From NCBI GenBank assembly GCA_030627285.1, contig DAOUSJ010000007.1:1-41570 (forward strand): a stretch of 41,570 nucleotides of DNA, in the 5' to 3' direction. Position 1 is the first letter of the stretch, and each line of letters starts with the position of its first letter. Shown one piece after another: positions 33,407 through 41,271 of the stretch. A program made the translations under genes and the position numbers. The stretch comes from Methylococcaceae bacterium. Its GTDB lineage: Bacteria > Pseudomonadota > Gammaproteobacteria > Methylococcales > Methylomonadaceae. The notes below the pieces were generated by a model. That model ran no database searches, was not told the DNA's origin, and saw only the letters and a list, made by a program, of their open reading frames with translations.

Positions 33407-33611
33407 AGTTTATCTAACTCTGTTAATCTGTCAAGTATTTATCTAGTAATAATTGTTTTTAAAGTCTCGATCAAGCAAATTTTTCTGTTACATATTTACT
33501 TCTAGATACTCCATGTGTCTAAACACATAAACATTATTTATCTAGGTATTAAACTACAACACAATTATTGAATTAGATTTATCTAAAGAATACACCTTAC
33601 TCATTGACAGC

Positions 33612-34206
33612 ATGAGTCAGCAACTTAGTGAAGATAAGATTGCAACAGGAATTTCTTTAGGAAATCAAGCCCCTGATTTTTGTTTGAAAAATTATAATGG
33701 CGATGATATTTATTTAAATAAAGTATTACATGTTGTCTTATCTTTTTATCGAGGCGATTGGTGTCCTGTTTGTCAAATTGAAAGCGCAACAAGATAATAT
33801 TAATGGTTCATGGAATTTACCCGTGCCTGCTACATTTGTATTGGATCAACAAGGAATAATATGTGGGCGACATGTTTCATCTGACTTTTTAACTAGAATT
33901 GAACCTATTGAAATTATTGGAACTTTGGAAAGATTATTGGGTAAAGATCAGGCACTTGCTTCTTATTTACACAGTAAAAATGAAATTTTACGGAGTACAT
34001 TAAAAGAATTAACTCGAACGCAAGAACAGTTATTACGTAAAGAAAAGAAGGCTGTTATTGGAGATTTAACTGCAGGTTTGGTACATGAAATTAAAAATCT
34101 GTTAAACCCTATTAGCTTTTTTGATCTAATGGTAGATGATTTTTCAAGAATCAACGAATTAAATTACAAGTATATCTTCAAATGTTACCAACGTATTTGC
34201 AACTAA
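33612..34206 (+). pseudogene. Degraded peroxiredoxin (AhpC/TSA)-histidine kinase fusion
   Basis: Frame 1 (33612-33797): LGNQAPDFCLKNYNGDDIYL...VVLSFYRGDWCPVCQIE then stop. Frame 2 (to 34206): NGSWNLPVPATFVLDQQGIICGRHVSSDFLTRIEPIEIIGTL + coiled coil + H-box LTAGLVHEIKNLLNPI, then stop before any ATPase domain. Confidence 0.8.
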
Positions 34207-34275
34207 AAAATATTAACCTATAAATTTATTATCTGTTATGGGATAGCTTATCCCGAACTCAGGTTAATTAAAGTG

Positions 34276-34938
34276 TTAAACCCTTATCCCAATATTCTGC
34301 TTATCCATAACAACCTTAAACATCATCCCTAAAATATCGTTTTTAAAAGCCTTATTTTCCTCAAATTCCTTATATAAATCCGTGTAATCAAAGACTAAAC
34401 CTTGTATTTTATCTTCCATCATTTTATCAAAGGTAATTTTAGAATTTTGTACATCTGAAAACTTTGTTGCCCTGATATATTCTTCATTTATCGCAATTTT
34501 ACTGGTTAAGTCTTCAAATAATATCTTGGTAACAAGGTCATTTTTACCAAACTCAGTTTCGCCCCATTTTTTATTAAATTCAGCGATAATTTCTTGCAAA
34601 AATTCTTTTTCAGGTTCGGCTTTAGAACCTCTCATCTGCGGAGTAATGGGGTCTATTTCTGTAACTCCATTATCTAGGATAATATCTTGATTTAAAGCCT
34701 GTCTGTGTTGGGTATAGCTATCTAAATCAATGCTATCAAGTAAGCCCTCTATACTTTCATTGTTGACTTTTAGTTTTAATTTAGGAATTAGGAATTTTAA
34801 GAACCAATACAATTCTTCCCAATATTTTTTATTAAATGGAATAATCAAAGCTAAAAAAGCATAGGTTTTTACAAATGAACTAGCTTTAACTTTAAAGCCC
34901 ACTTGCTCATCAGTTTCTAGCTCATTAAAAAGAGCCAC
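34276..34938 (-). CDS. hsdR: Type I restriction enzyme HsdR, C-terminal fragment (frameshifted from 34917-37220)
   Basis: ALFNELETDEQVGFKVKASSFVKTYAFLALIIPF continues the HsdR reading after a 1-nt shift; called start is an internal GTG. Confidence 0.88.
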   Translation of the reverse strand: MALFNELETDEQVGFKVKASSFVKTYAFLALIIPFNKKYWEELYWFLKFLIPKLKLKVNNESIEGLLDSIDLDSYTQHRQALNQDIILDNGVTEIDPITPQMRGSKAEPEKEFLQEIIAEFNKKWGETEFGKNDLVTKILFEDLTSKIAINEEYIRATKFSDVQNSKITFDKMMEDKIQGLVFDYTDLYKEFEENKAFKNDILGMMFKVVMDKQNIGIRV

Positions 34939-37220
34939 ATGACTATCAATATTTTTTCTAGTTCTTCCCTATCTTTCTTTGCAAAATAATTTGCGGTGAA
35001 ATCTTGAGCTTCTTGCTTTTCGTAAACTTGAAAATCTGCCAATGCCTCTTCTAAGTCATTTAATTTATTTGGGTCGGTATCTTCGCTTAATAAAATACAT
35101 TCATAATAAGGGTCAAAAGCTTCTTTTATCTCTTTGGTCGTATTCACAAAATCTAAAACAAAAGTATCACTTTTATAGGGTTTATAAGCTCTATTTAGTC
35201 TTGATAAAGTTTGCACCGCTTGAACACCCTTTAAAGGTTTATCAACATACATTGAGTGCAATAATGGCTCATCAAACCCCGTTTGAAATTTTTCTGCCAC
35301 GATTAAAAAACGGTATTCTGTTTCTTTGAGTTTTTCAGGAATTTTACCGCTATCAAAACCGTTTATTCCTGTTTCGGTGTAACCATCCCCTTTAAATTCT
35401 TTTTTCCCTGAAAAGGCGATAATGGATTTATAAGGCGAATGAATTTTTTTTAAATATTCATCAAAAGCTTGCTTGTACTTAATTGCATTAATAATGCTAC
35501 TGGTAACCACCATTGCTTTAGCTTTGCCGTTTATGTCTTTAGTTTTGGTCATAAAATCATCCACCATCACCGCCGTTTTTTTAGCAATAGTGAATTCATG
35601 TCCCTCAACATAAGCTTTAATTTTTTTCTTAGCTTTTGAGGTATCAAAAACAGGGTTATTTTCTGCTGTTTGTAATAATTTATAATAACTTTTATAGGTG
35701 GTGTAATTTTTCAAAACATCTAAAATAAATTCTTCTTGAATGGCTTGTTTCATAGAATATAAATGAAATGGCTCTCTTTTTCCCTCACTAGTTTTAGTCC
35801 CAAACAGCTCTAAAGTTTTATTTTTAGGGGTCGCAGTAAAAGCAAAATAACTAATATTTTTAGGTAACTTTTTAGACTCCATCGCCTTAATGACCTCATC
35901 TTCGCTATCAAATTCACTTGATAAGGTCGTATTCATTTTTCCTGCTGTCTCCCCTGTTTGGCTAGAATGAGCTTCATCAATAATAATGGCAAAACGACTG
36001 CCTTTTAATTCGGCTATTTCCTCCACTACAAAGGGAAATTTTTGAATAGTAGTAATAATAATTTTTTTACCATTTTCCAAAGCACTTTTTAACTGCTGGC
36101 TACCTTGTGTAATTGCTTCAACTACATTATTAACTTGAGCAAATTGCTTAATGTTATCCCTTATTTGTTTATCTAAAACCCTACGGTCTGTAACAACAAT
36201 AACGGAATTAAAGATCACTTTATCATCGCTAGAATGTAGTTCTACCAATTGATGAGCAAGCCAAGTTAAAGAGTTACTTTTCCCTGAACCTGCGGAATGC
36301 TGAATTAAATATTTTTGCCCTGTACCGTTTGCTTTAGCATGGGCGAGTATTTTTATAACTGCATTCAATTGATGGTATCTAGGAAAAATAAGCTTTTTTT
36401 CTTTTTTTAAGAATTGAGCATAATTTTCTATGATGTTACTCAATGAAGTTTTAGTTAAAATCGACTTCCACAAGTAATCCGTTTTAATCCCATCAGGATT
36501 TAAAGGGTTGCCTTTGCCGTTAGCGTGTCCCTTATTAAACGGTAAAAAAACGGTTTTCTGTCCGTTTAAATAGGTCGTCATATAAACTTCGTTAGTATCA
36601 ACCGCAAAATGTACTAAACAGCGAGCAAGTTGAAAGAGCGGCTCTTTAGGGTCACGGTCTTTTTTATACTGTTTTTTAGCCTCTTCAACGGTTTGATTAG
36701 TCCAGTGGTTTTTTAACTCAAAAGTGATAAGCGGTAAACCGTTTATAAAAATCACCATATCTAAGGAATTGCGGTTTTTATCGCTGTAATAGAGTTGTCT
36801 TGTGACTGAGTAACGATTTTGTTGATAACGGCTGATACTTTGCGGATTTTTATCTGAGGTGGGTTGTTTATAGAGTAATTGAAATTTTAACTCTTGGTCA
36901 CTAATGCCTTTTCTTAGTAGCTCTACAATGCCCTTTTGTTGAATTTGTTGATAAATTCGTTTACAAAGTAACTCTTTGTAATTTTCGCCTCGTTTCTTTT
37001 TATATTCGGCTAAAGTGTCGGCTTGGGTTTCTTCTAAGAAGTTGAAAAGTTGCAAAGTATCAAGGCAATAATCTTTATTGTAGTCTTGTGACTCACCTTG
37101 AAAGTAGCCTGATTCTTGTATTAAGCTTTTTTCGATTAAAGCTTCAAAGCTTTCTTCATTGGTTTTTGTTGGCATAGTGATTTTTGTAGGTGCAGATTTA
37201 TCTGCATTTTTAATAACCAA
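34917..37220 (-). CDS. hsdR: Type I restriction enzyme HsdR, N-terminal nuclease/helicase portion (frameshifted; likely start at 37175)
   Basis: Nuclease region NGLPLITFELKNHW; IQHSAGSGKSNSLTWLA (Walker A), IIDEAHSSQTGE, FAFTATPKNKTLELFG, VAEKFQTGFDEPLLHSMYVDKPL, VQTLSRLNRAY. Confidence 0.93.
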   Translation of the reverse strand: MVIKNADKSAPTKITMPTKTNEESFEALIEKSLIQESGYFQGESQDYNKDYCLDTLQLFNFLEETQADTLAEYKKKRGENYKELLCKRIYQQIQQKGIVELLRKGISDQELKFQLLYKQPTSDKNPQSISRYQQNRYSVTRQLYYSDKNRNSLDMVIFINGLPLITFELKNHWTNQTVEEAKKQYKKDRDPKEPLFQLARCLVHFAVDTNEVYMTTYLNGQKTVFLPFNKGHANGKGNPLNPDGIKTDYLWKSILTKTSLSNIIENYAQFLKKEKKLIFPRYHQLNAVIKILAHAKANGTGQKYLIQHSAGSGKSNSLTWLAHQLVELHSSDDKVIFNSVIVVTDRRVLDKQIRDNIKQFAQVNNVVEAITQGSQQLKSALENGKKIIITTIQKFPFVVEEIAELKGSRFAIIIDEAHSSQTGETAGKMNTTLSSEFDSEDEVIKAMESKKLPKNISYFAFTATPKNKTLELFGTKTSEGKREPFHLYSMKQAIQEEFILDVLKNYTTYKSYYKLLQTAENNPVFDTSKAKKKIKAYVEGHEFTIAKKTAVMVDDFMTKTKDINGKAKAMVVTSSIINAIKYKQAFDEYLKKIHSPYKSIIAFSGKKEFKGDGYTETGINGFDSGKIPEKLKETEYRFLIVAEKFQTGFDEPLLHSMYVDKPLKGVQAVQTLSRLNRAYKPYKSDTFVLDFVNTTKEIKEAFDPYYECILLSEDTDPNKLNDLEEALADFQVYEKQEAQDFTANYFAKKDREELEKILIVMWLFLMS

Positions 37221-37256
37221 AAAATATCATTCGGATGCAGATAAATCTGCACCTAC
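37186..37256. repeat. Nested palindromic inverted-repeat element (MITE/REP-like) between hsdS and hsdR
   Basis: GTAGGTGCAGATTTATCTGCAT (37186-37207) and its perfect reverse complement ATGCAGATAAATCTGCACCTAC (37235-37256), 27-nt spacer; each arm is itself palindromic (TGCAGAT-TT-ATCTGCA). Confidence 0.85.
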
Positions 37257-38512
37257 GGTATTTTTATCTTTCCTGTCACGGCATCATAACACAGACGTTC
37301 TTTGTACTCGTTTATCAGGTCTATTTCTTGTTGATATTTGGCTTTTAATTCGTCTATCTGTTGACTTTTTTCTTCGATGTAATTGACGATTTGTTTTTGT
37401 TCATTAAGCGGTGGAATTGAAACTAATATATTTCCTATAAAATTCCAATTAGCTCTTGGCATTTTTGAACCATAAGTAGAGCTATCAATTAAACTTATAA
37501 ACTTACTTGTTAGAAATAAATTTAATAAAAAATATTTATTGAATAACTTAGCTTTAAAAACTAATAACTCACTTGTACAAATTCCTGAAAAATCAGCAAT
37601 AAAAGCCTTTGCTAAATAAGGTCTTAATTTAGAAAATAAAACATTCCCTTTTTTAAAGTTTTTGCTTACTCCTTCAACTTCTATATTAATATCTAAATTT
37701 ATAATTTTACCTGTCCAACTTTCTATATTTTCTAAGCCTATATATTTTCTATTATTTATAGTCTTTTGATTATTTACTAAGTCTACACAAAATTTTAACT
37801 TCCTAATCTCCCAATATTCAGGAATATCGCCTATCCACTCAACTCCTGAATTTTTATAATTCACATCAGGGTTAATCCCTTTTGTCACCGCCTGAGTAAT
37901 TAGGGTTTTCTTTTCCTCTTCCAGTAATTCAATAAGCCTTTGTTTATTTTTTATAAACTGCTCTATTTTTTGGCTTTTATCATCAAGGAAAGAAGCTATT
38001 TTTTGTTGTTCCTGAAGTGGTACAAATGGTATAAAAAAATCTTTTAATCTGCTTTGGTTTAAAATTGGTAATGTAATTACAATAGCTAAATTGTTTAATA
38101 CATCTGGAAAAATACTAATATAATAAAAAACAAATTTATAATCACAAACTCTAAAATCACCAATCACGTTTATTTGTTGATTACAACAAAATTTATTCAA
38201 TGAGTAAGATACCTTCCCTAAAGTTCCACCTATAGAAACTAATAAGACACTATTTTCATTAAACAACTTACATTCTCTAAGATTAATAGCTAAATTAGAT
38301 ATTTTCCTGTTTGAGGATTTTAGATTCTTTACCTTTAAATCAGAAGGTGTAAACCAATTAATTTCTTCTTTATAAAATTTAGGGTTACTAGATTTTGGAG
38401 TAGTACCTGTATATATTTTTGCAATATATTTAAGCCTTCTAACTTCCCAATTCTCAGGAATATCCCCTATCCATTCAACCCCTGAATTTTTATATTTCTC
38501 GTATGTTTTCAT
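37253..38512 (-). CDS. hsdS: Type I restriction-modification specificity subunit HsdS
   Basis: Two TRDs each preceded by YKNSGVEWIGDIPE.WE.R.LK, and conserved helices (PLQEQQKIASFLDDKSQKIEQFI; PLNEQKQIVNYIEEKSQQIDELKAKYQ). Confidence 0.94.
   Translation of the reverse strand: MKTYEKYKNSGVEWIGDIPENWEVRRLKYIAKIYTGTTPKSSNPKFYKEEINWFTPSDLKVKNLKSSNRKISNLAINLRECKLFNENSVLLVSIGGTLGKVSYSLNKFCCNQQINVIGDFRVCDYKFVFYYISIFPDVLNNLAIVITLPILNQSRLKDFFIPFVPLQEQQKIASFLDDKSQKIEQFIKNKQRLIELLEEEKKTLITQAVTKGINPDVNYKNSGVEWIGDIPEYWEIRKLKFCVDLVNNQKTINNRKYIGLENIESWTGKIINLDINIEVEGVSKNFKKGNVLFSKLRPYLAKAFIADFSGICTSELLVFKAKLFNKYFLLNLFLTSKFISLIDSSTYGSKMPRANWNFIGNILVSIPPLNEQKQIVNYIEEKSQQIDELKAKYQQEIDLINEYKERLCYDAVTGKIKIP
37805..37858 (-). 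repeat. HsdS internal direct repeat copy 2 (pairs with 38441-38494)
   Basis: 54-nt stretches, few mismatches, both encoding YKNSGVEWIGDIPE(N/Y)WE(V/I)R. Confidence 0.8.
38441..38494 (-). repeat. HsdS internal direct repeat copy 1 (pairs with 37805-37858)
   Basis: See paired copy. Confidence 0.8.
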
Positions 38513-38521
38513 AAACTGTCC

Positions 38522-39397
38522 TTAGTGAATAATAGAGTTAAGCACACCATCGGTTTCATCTTCCAAAGCCAAAATATCCGCCCTAATGGTATCAAGAGTC
38601 CTTAATTGCTTAGGTTTATAAAAATGACGATTAAAATTAATCTCATAACCCTTAACCGTTTTACTATGGTCAATCCAAGCATCCGCTACAAACGGCAATA
38701 CTTCCCTATCAAAATAAACCTGAATATCCTCTTTTAACGGCACACTTTCAGAGTCCCTTAAATCACTATCCGCTTCAAATTCAACTCCCTTTGCGGTCTT
38801 CTTTTTAATCACTTCCTTAGCTTGCTCATCTTTCCAACTTACCGCAGACAAGAAAACCTTTTTATCAGCATTATCAAACTTTAAACCTAAATCTTTTAAA
38901 GCCTTATCAATTGCCTTTTTAAAAGCATTAAAATCGTTAAATTCTTTATCAACCTTAGCTTGTAACTTTTTAGCAATCGCCATGACTTCAAGTTGATGTT
39001 TCCAAGTTTCAACATTAAAAAATTTCTTTTTATCCGCTGGACTCACTTTTATTTCTTCCAATTTCACATAAGCTTCAAACGGATTTTTTAAACTTTCTAA
39101 ATCTTCATAAACCGCTTGCGGATGCTTCGCATAAAAATAGCTCATCAAATCCCTTAGCTTGTCGATAAATCGTAAACTTTCAATCGCTTCATCAGTAATT
39201 TTAGCTGAAAGCCTTAAAGGTCTATCTACAATGATTTTATTAAAACCAAAATCCGCATTATCAAAAATCTTAGCATCTTCATTTTCTATAAAATCAAGGT
39301 AAGTATCAGTAATATTTTTGATATGTTCAGGTGAAAACTGGCAATTTTTATTTCCTAAACTCTTTCGCATTTTTTTCAAACTGTTGACTTGCATCAA
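38522..39397 (-). CDS. hsdM: Type I DNA methyltransferase HsdM, C-terminal fragment (frameshifted)
   Basis: KMRKSLGNKNCQFSPEHIKNITDTYLDFIENEDAKIFDNADFGFNKIIVDRPLRLS is the standard HsdM C-terminal continuation. Confidence 0.9.
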   Translation of the reverse strand: MMQVNSLKKMRKSLGNKNCQFSPEHIKNITDTYLDFIENEDAKIFDNADFGFNKIIVDRPLRLSAKITDEAIESLRFIDKLRDLMSYFYAKHPQAVYEDLESLKNPFEAYVKLEEIKVSPADKKKFFNVETWKHQLEVMAIAKKLQAKVDKEFNDFNAFKKAIDKALKDLGLKFDNADKKVFLSAVSWKDEQAKEVIKKKTAKGVEFEADSDLRDSESVPLKEDIQVYFDREVLPFVADAWIDHSKTVKGYEINFNRHFYKPKQLRTLDTIRADILALEDETDGVLNSIIH

Positions 39398-40694
39398 TAA
39401 GCTGAATTTTGCCTTTGCGATGTTCCGCTTTACGATTACTTAACACCCAAATATAAGTAGTGATACCCGTGTTATAAAACAGGTTTTTAGGTAGTTGAAC
39501 AATAGCCTCTAGCCAATCATTTTCAATAATCCATTGCCTAATATTACTTTCACCGCTTCCAGCATCGCCCGTAAACAAAGCTGAACCATTATGAACCGTT
39601 GCAATACGGCTTCCCTGTTTGGTGTCATGCTTCATTTTAGAAAGCATATTAACTAAGAATAGTAATTGACCATCACTAACTCTAGGCACGCCCACAGTAA
39701 AACGAGGGTCTATAATTTCCTTTTTTTCGCCCACAATAGTGTCATAATCTGACTTCCAAGATTTACCATAAGGCGGATTAGATAACATAAAATCAAATTT
39801 TAATTGTGAATGCTTATCTATCTGTAAAGTAGAACCGAAAGCAATATTATCAGGTTCAGGATGGTCTTCTTTAAGCATCATATCCGCCTTACAAATAGCA
39901 TAAGTTTCTGCTTGTAATTCTTGCCCATACAAACCACAGATTGCTTTAGACCGAATTTCACCCTCTAAGTCATGAATAAAATGCTCGGCTTCGGTCAACA
40001 TTCCACCTGAACCGCAAGCAGGATCATAAACAAGGTGAGTTCCCTCTTGAATACTGTCTTTAACAGGTAAGAAAACCATGTGAGTCATTAATTGAATAAC
40101 TTCTCTAGGGGTGAAATGTTCCCCTGCTTCTTCGTTGTTTTCTTCGTTGAATCGCCTAATTAATTCTTCAAAAACATAACCCATTCCTAAATTAGTTAAA
40201 CTTGCCATCACCACATCGCCCTCGCGGTTTAAAACAGGTTTAGGGCTTAGGTTTATATCTTTAGAACAAAATTTATCGACTATTCCGTATAAAATATTAG
40301 CTTCATCCATTGTTTCAAGCTGATTTCTTAGCTTAAATTTACTAATAATTTCTTGAACATTTTCACTATAACCATTTAGATAAACTTCAAAATTTTCTTT
40401 AATTTTACTGGGTTCATCAAGCAAACTTTTAAAAGTAAATTTTGAAGTATTAAAAAAGACATAACCTGAATCTTTTTTTAAACGACTTTGCCCATTAATT
40501 CCCTTTTCATCTAAAAATTGCTTTGTTTTAAGCACTTGGTCTTTAGTCGGTTCTAATAAAACATCAAGTCTTCTTAAAACCGTAAAAGGTAAAATAACAT
40601 CACGATATTTTCCTCTGACATAAACATCCCTAAGTAAGTCATCTGCAACTGACCAAATGAAAGCAACAATTTTATTGTGTGTTGAATGATCCAT
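39348..40694 (-). CDS. hsdM: Type I DNA methyltransferase HsdM, N-terminal/catalytic portion (frameshifted)
   Basis: GEHFTPREVIQLMTHMV, VYDPACGSGGMLTEAEHFI, LSNPPYGKSWKSD (N6-adenine MTase NPPY); ends QLIDASQQFEKNAKEFRK* after the frameshift. Confidence 0.93.
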   Translation of the reverse strand: MDHSTHNKIVAFIWSVADDLLRDVYVRGKYRDVILPFTVLRRLDVLLEPTKDQVLKTKQFLDEKGINGQSRLKKDSGYVFFNTSKFTFKSLLDEPSKIKENFEVYLNGYSENVQEIISKFKLRNQLETMDEANILYGIVDKFCSKDINLSPKPVLNREGDVVMASLTNLGMGYVFEELIRRFNEENNEEAGEHFTPREVIQLMTHMVFLPVKDSIQEGTHLVYDPACGSGGMLTEAEHFIHDLEGEIRSKAICGLYGQELQAETYAICKADMMLKEDHPEPDNIAFGSTLQIDKHSQLKFDFMLSNPPYGKSWKSDYDTIVGEKKEIIDPRFTVGVPRVSDGQLLFLVNMLSKMKHDTKQGSRIATVHNGSALFTGDAGSGESNIRQWIIENDWLEAIVQLPKNLFYNTGITTYIWVLSNRKAEHRKGKIQLIDASQQFEKNAKEFRK

Positions 40695-40821: not shown

Positions 40822-41271
40822 ATAAAAAGTAGACCAGATAAATTAAAAGGTCGTTATGTGCGAATTAACTCATTAGACTGGTCAGAAAAACCTGTACTCG
40901 GATGGATTAAAAGGCTGGAATTTCCAGTTGTTTTTCACTGCCAAGTATTTAAAAATAAAGATGGAAGCACAGGTTTACTCTATTTGATTAGCAATGATGT
41001 TGAGGCAACAAAAACGACTATTGAAACAACCTACCAAAAACGGTGGAAAGTCGAAGTCTTTCATAAAAATATTAAATCCAATACGGGGCTAGCAAAATCG
41101 GTAATAACACAAAGCAATCATATCTTCATGTCGCTTTATGCGGCTGCTAAATTGGAGTGCTTAAGTATAAAAACAGGACTTAATCCGTTTACATTAAAGC
41201 GCAAGTTGTATTTAAAAGCTATTCGACAAGCATTCGATGAATTGCAGATTTTAAAACAAGCTACTGCGTAA
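40822..41271 (+). pseudogene. C-terminal remnant of a DDE transposase (IS701/IS4-like)
   Basis: SRPDKLKGRYVRINSLDWSEKPV...KNKDGSTGLLYLISNDVEAT..TTYQKRWKVEVFHKNIKSNTGLAKSVITQSNHIFMSLYAAAKLE; in-frame stop just upstream and no N-terminal half. Confidence 0.75.

Follow-up and report, generated by a model that had tools for sequence, protein, structure and literature searches.

The nuclease of Type I restriction-modification (R-M) enzymes has no activity of its own, and HsdM is needed for restriction as well as for modification (PMC12707154). R-M genes that are phase variable and carry homopolymer tracts are well known (for example PMC6789123). Poly-A transcriptional slippage has been found to rescue frameshifted genes in Buchnera and Blochmannia (review, PMC5009743), and for slippage by the E. 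coli RNA polymerase a run of "at least 7" T "and even more adenine residues" has been given (PMC6260861). In Vibrio, single-nucleotide indels rose 334-473 fold after deletion of mutS, most of them in homopolymers, and the substitution spectrum moved towards transitions (PMC5854121).

Here we describe a Type I R-M operon in which hsdM and hsdR are each interrupted by a one-base frameshift. It lies in the window, by which we mean the whole stretch of 41,570 nucleotides analysed, taken from a 1.93-Mb draft genome of 117 contigs (G000). The particulate methane monooxygenase genes pmoCAB are present in the window and identify the organism as a methanotroph of the order Methylococcales. G001, G004 and G005 represent sister species, G004 being another species of the same genus. 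From the sequence evidence set out below the operon was probably functional until recently and was then inactivated by two real one-base frameshifts, most likely through ordinary recent gene loss in a lineage with a broken mutS and not through a genetic switch or a sequencing error.

The hsd operon and its frame breaks

The genes lie on the minus strand in the order hsdM, hsdS, hsdR, and all Type I subunits were present with their domains (HsdM_N and N6_Mtase, two Methylase_S stretches, HSDR_N and the SWI2/SNF2 motor). hsdM is divided between ORF1 (40694..39348, 448 aa), which carries HsdM_N and the N6_Mtase catalytic domain and ends out of frame past an A7 run, and ORF2 (39397..38522, 291 aa), which encodes the C-terminal part in a different frame. 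The PADLOC Type I methylase model PDLC03029 (661 positions) matched ORF1 over its positions 1-427 and ORF2 over 421-660. Homologues follow ORF1 as far as QFEK and ORF2 from MRKSLGNK without a gap, and because the match switches at this point the extra base was placed in the A7 run (39370..39376 on the minus strand, T7 on the plus strand). The break site is passed in a single frame by 91 of 92 HsdM homologues. hsdS (38512..37253, 419 aa) contains two specificity domains, the two Methylase_S stretches, and is intact. hsdR consists of ORF1 (37220..34917, 767 aa) with HSDR_N nuclease, SWI2/SNF2 motor and T1R_D3-like domains, followed in a different frame by ORF2 (34938..34276, 220 aa) with the C-terminal domain; its homologues, of ~1000-1120 aa in one frame, align contiguously over both. 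In hsdM and hsdR alike ORF2 overlaps ORF1, and start codons are found near each shift.

The one-base loss in hsdR falls within 34948..34957 on the minus strand, an interval made up of an A6 run (34952-34957) and the bases just 3' of it. The initial annotation had described two A-run indels, +1 in hsdM and -1 in hsdR. Both one-base breaks appear to be real and the hsdM insertion does sit in A7, but placing the hsdR loss inside A6 is not secure. The residue which ORF1 encodes beyond the run is I, as it is in 45 of 54 homologues, while N occurs in none of them. The most likely site of the loss is therefore immediately 3' of the run, at ~34948-34951 on the plus strand, rather than inside it. The same annotation was right that hsdS is intact and that the operon shows no further lesion, other stops or indels not being visible. 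Since hsdM and hsdR do not have the uninterrupted frames of a Type I R-M system, the operon was classed as a broken member of this group and not as an active system.

A truncated HsdM would keep its catalytic domain and lose about the C-terminal 40%, and a truncated HsdR would keep the nuclease and motor and lose the C-terminal domain. In EcoR124I-type enzymes the HsdR C-terminal domain helps assembly with the methylase. With both subunits shortened in this way we infer that restriction is gone and that modification is probably gone; the truncated HsdM might retain partial activity.

On the side of hsdM the operon is flanked by a C-terminal fragment of an IS701-family transposase (40858..41271, plus strand; positions 190-317 of 318), and on the side of hsdR by a decayed partial copy of a redoxin-histidine kinase gene (33562..34206, plus strand). 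This is the second copy of that gene, the other being found with a premature stop on another contig of the same genome (G000:C84, L246:4353-5783), where it adjoins a Type II R-M pair that looks intact (an Eco47II-type endonuclease with a C5 methylase, L246:1966-3994). In G004 an intact redoxin-histidine kinase gene adjoins an hsdM fragment. R-M genes seem to have inserted repeatedly at the 3' side of this kinase gene. A dispersed repeat of ~45 bp lies just past hsdR (34224-34272), with copies of 83-97% identity in several G005 contigs and in G002.

A second assembly and a frameshift census

A search of 237 genomes from the family found the operon as a near copy in G004 only; the hsd locus also occurs on G035:C20, from a relative in the same order. 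The 44-kb contig C92 of G004 contains a block of ~23.3 kb (at ~20730-44085; L031, L140) which is 99.9% identical to window positions 16048-39383. The two sequences differ by 11 substitutions, nine of them transitions (9:2), with no indels, and both frameshifts are present in each. For the genes of this block, separate G004 orthologues of 68-73% identity lie on contig C2; for those of the other C92 half, orthologues of 70-83% lie elsewhere in G000. Because the G004 orthologues of the flanking genes are only ~70% identical, the near-copy block is considered foreign to G004. Most simply, C92 would be a chimera that holds a second strain of the window's species within the bin of another species, a contaminant of that public bin. 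We considered that both frameshifts might be carried independently, and conserved, by G004, which would favour functional frameshifting, and dropped this on the same grounds, its own orthologues standing at ~70% and the 99.9% block being foreign.

Identity breaks off inside hsdM at 39384, which places the C92 join 8 bases away from the A7 run. Had the two parts been joined through a shared k-mer of at least 21 bases, both hsdM alleles would have the same A7. The G004 hsdM itself is found in two pieces, on C71 (L032:1524-1690) and on C92 (L031:5552-6785), contigs that share ~52 bp. The piece on C92 is ~95% identical to the hsdM of the window, in genomes ~70% alike, which suggests transfer of hsdM between species.

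Comparison of the window hsdM with the G004 allele beyond 39384 gave 52 synonymous and 9 nonsynonymous changes (pN/pS 0.04), and hsdM was therefore under selection until recently. Conservation of the gene halves beyond each shift was similar to that in intact homologues (hsdM rank 23 of 72; hsdR rank 6 of 53, slightly fast). As these halves are not unusually diverged, the hsd lesions look young.

For the census 452 kb (23%) of the genome was compared with ORFs from 1.6 Mb of G001. This yielded 177 kb of conserved coding sequence with 139 full-length genes and 479 A/T runs of 6 or more, in which a single frameshift was observed outside hsd; the same scan readily picks up the hsd breaks. The one frameshift affects a hybrid histidine kinase (G000:C105, L224:8943-11818), where it lies beside an A7 run, within the first receiver domain. 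A further candidate at pmoB (window ~13200) was discarded, as it reflects a stop-to-stop frame that extends upstream of the gene. At the census density of 1 per 177 kb of conserved coding sequence outside hsd, ~0.03 frameshifts would be expected in the ~5.1 kb of hsdM and hsdR, where there are 2 (P ~ 4e-4 by our own arithmetic).

These data bear on the main alternative, that miscalled homopolymers or an assembly junction made the frameshifts and that the genes are intact in the cell. Both lesions are at or beside A runs and the C92 join is close to one of them; moreover both assemblies may stem from related projects. Nevertheless the lesions are identical in two assemblies separated by those substitutions, and only one of the other A/T runs in conserved genes is accompanied by a frameshift. 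Longer runs in the same operon (T8 at 35444 and ten runs of 7) are in frame, and the window's own contig has no assembly break in hsdM. Accessory genes also carry lesions of other types, namely a 2-bp duplication in mutS and the stop codon in the redoxin-kinase gene. An artefact of this kind is accordingly unlikely in our judgement, and random or pervasive sequencing error appears unlikely as well; the mild argument against error made in the initial annotation, from the lack of frameshifts in the other long core genes of the window, gained support from the second assembly and from the census. As a calibration, the case shows that public data alone can support frameshifts as real even when they resemble errors, here through a second copy on a chimeric contig in another bin.

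The broken mutS, expression rescue and phase variation

The genome contains other inactivated accessory genes, namely mutS, the hybrid kinase and the redoxin-kinase with its stop. In mutS, a 2-bp tandem duplication (AG) leaves two ORFs, of 713 and 137 aa (G000:C113, L244:3902-6444), and cuts MutS domain V between positions 101 and 102. In the sister species G001, G004 and G005 the gene is intact, with frames of 857-860 aa, and in G000 mutL is present as an intact ORF of 545 aa. The mutS lesion was seen in one assembly only and may be later than the hsd lesions.

Loss of MutS would strongly raise single-base slippage in homopolymers and may in this way have contributed to the insertion in the hsdM A7 run. 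The lesions in hsdM and the hybrid kinase and the transition bias between the strains fit such a loss, while the probable position of the hsdR lesion outside a homopolymer counts against the link. The absence of indels beside 11 substitutions over 23.3 kb does not look like a strong mutator, and the one frameshift in 177 kb outside hsd adds no support. We therefore put forward only tentatively that MutS loss helped cause at least the hsdM lesion, and regard a natural mutator as possible from the sequence. In kind the finding is ordinary, and its interest for further work lies in the link to mutS. Should the mutS break be confirmed, the species would be a methanotroph naturally deficient in mismatch repair, and metagenomes would then allow direct observation of a defence system in decay.

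A second alternative is that working subunits are still made, through transcriptional slippage, ribosomal frameshifting or reinitiation, the last giving a two-chain HsdM. The overlapping frames with start codons near the shift in each gene would allow this, and in E. coli a methylase gene with a one-base deletion is restored by slippage (PMC6260861). In hsdR, AGGGA occurs ~8 nt upstream of the run, with a modest downstream fold (z -1.86), but these bases belong to the codons of DREELEK, and the hsdM site has no downstream fold beyond chance (z 0.0). The A7 and A6 runs are at or below the length which the E. coli RNA polymerase needs for slipping, and the split is common to no homologue. Rescue of this kind is thus considered very unlikely. 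The suggestion of slippage as described in insect endosymbionts is disfavoured on similar grounds, the organism being a methanotroph, nearly all homologues lacking the frameshift and the runs being too short or borderline. The dnaX -1 frameshift layout has AGGGA upstream of the slip run and a fold downstream; window positions 34947-34975, with the hsdR AGGGA and fold, resemble it, probably by coincidence of the DREELEK codons.

Slightly less probable again is reversible phase variation, in which the runs would gain or lose a base between cells and switch the system on and off, the more rapidly with MutS lost. The one-base lesions near A runs in otherwise intact genes, the broken mutS and the recent purifying selection on hsdM are what such switching would lead one to expect. 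On the other hand the runs, at 6-7 bases, are short, and the operon, with 11 runs of 7 or more, contains a longer one; the hsdR loss is probably outside its run, and joint reversion of two genes would be required. Tract length, which had been suggested for comparison between cells or strains, was compared in two assemblies, the window and G004:C92, and was identical at both sites; on these observations the proposal of reversible A-tracts is disfavoured. In viral contigs, a search for the exact pattern of either site, with the run length left free, found no match. A more far-reaching version, and the one to which we give least credence, is that MutS loss makes ordinary A6 and A7 runs fast reversible switches, with the Type I system and mutS itself, through its revertible 2-bp duplication, toggling between cells. 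Were switching true, it would imply a population-level trade of phage defence against DNA uptake.

Coordinated silencing, in which loss of the methylase selects for loss of the nuclease, was rejected as unnecessary because the Type I nuclease depends on HsdM and HsdS and is disarmed once hsdM is broken; restriction would be lost through either lesion by itself, and the second would be near-neutral decay.

Comparison with known systems

As a case of recent inactivation, the locus is closest to known Type I R-M operons (PADLOC MTase_I PDLC03029; Pfam HsdM_N, N6_Mtase, Methylase_S and HSDR_N), with which it shares three subunits in one operon and from which it differs in the one-base frameshift that interrupts each of hsdM and hsdR. 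It resembles the phase-variable R-M genes of Neisseria and Helicobacter in its one-base frame breaks, which lie at a mononucleotide run or next to one, but here the run is only 6-7 A, length variation was not seen and the loss in hsdR probably lies outside the run. With the slippage-rescued genes of Buchnera and Blochmannia it has in common an A/T-rich genome and a frameshift at an A run, whereas this organism is no insect endosymbiont, its runs are shorter and its relatives are without the frameshift. The likeness to mutS-deficient mutators, the mutS-deletion lines of Vibrio (PMC5854121), consists of a broken mutS, single-base indels at A runs and transitions as 9 of 11 substitutions; in contrast to those lines there are few frameshifts elsewhere and mutL is intact, and the comparison is one of sequence.
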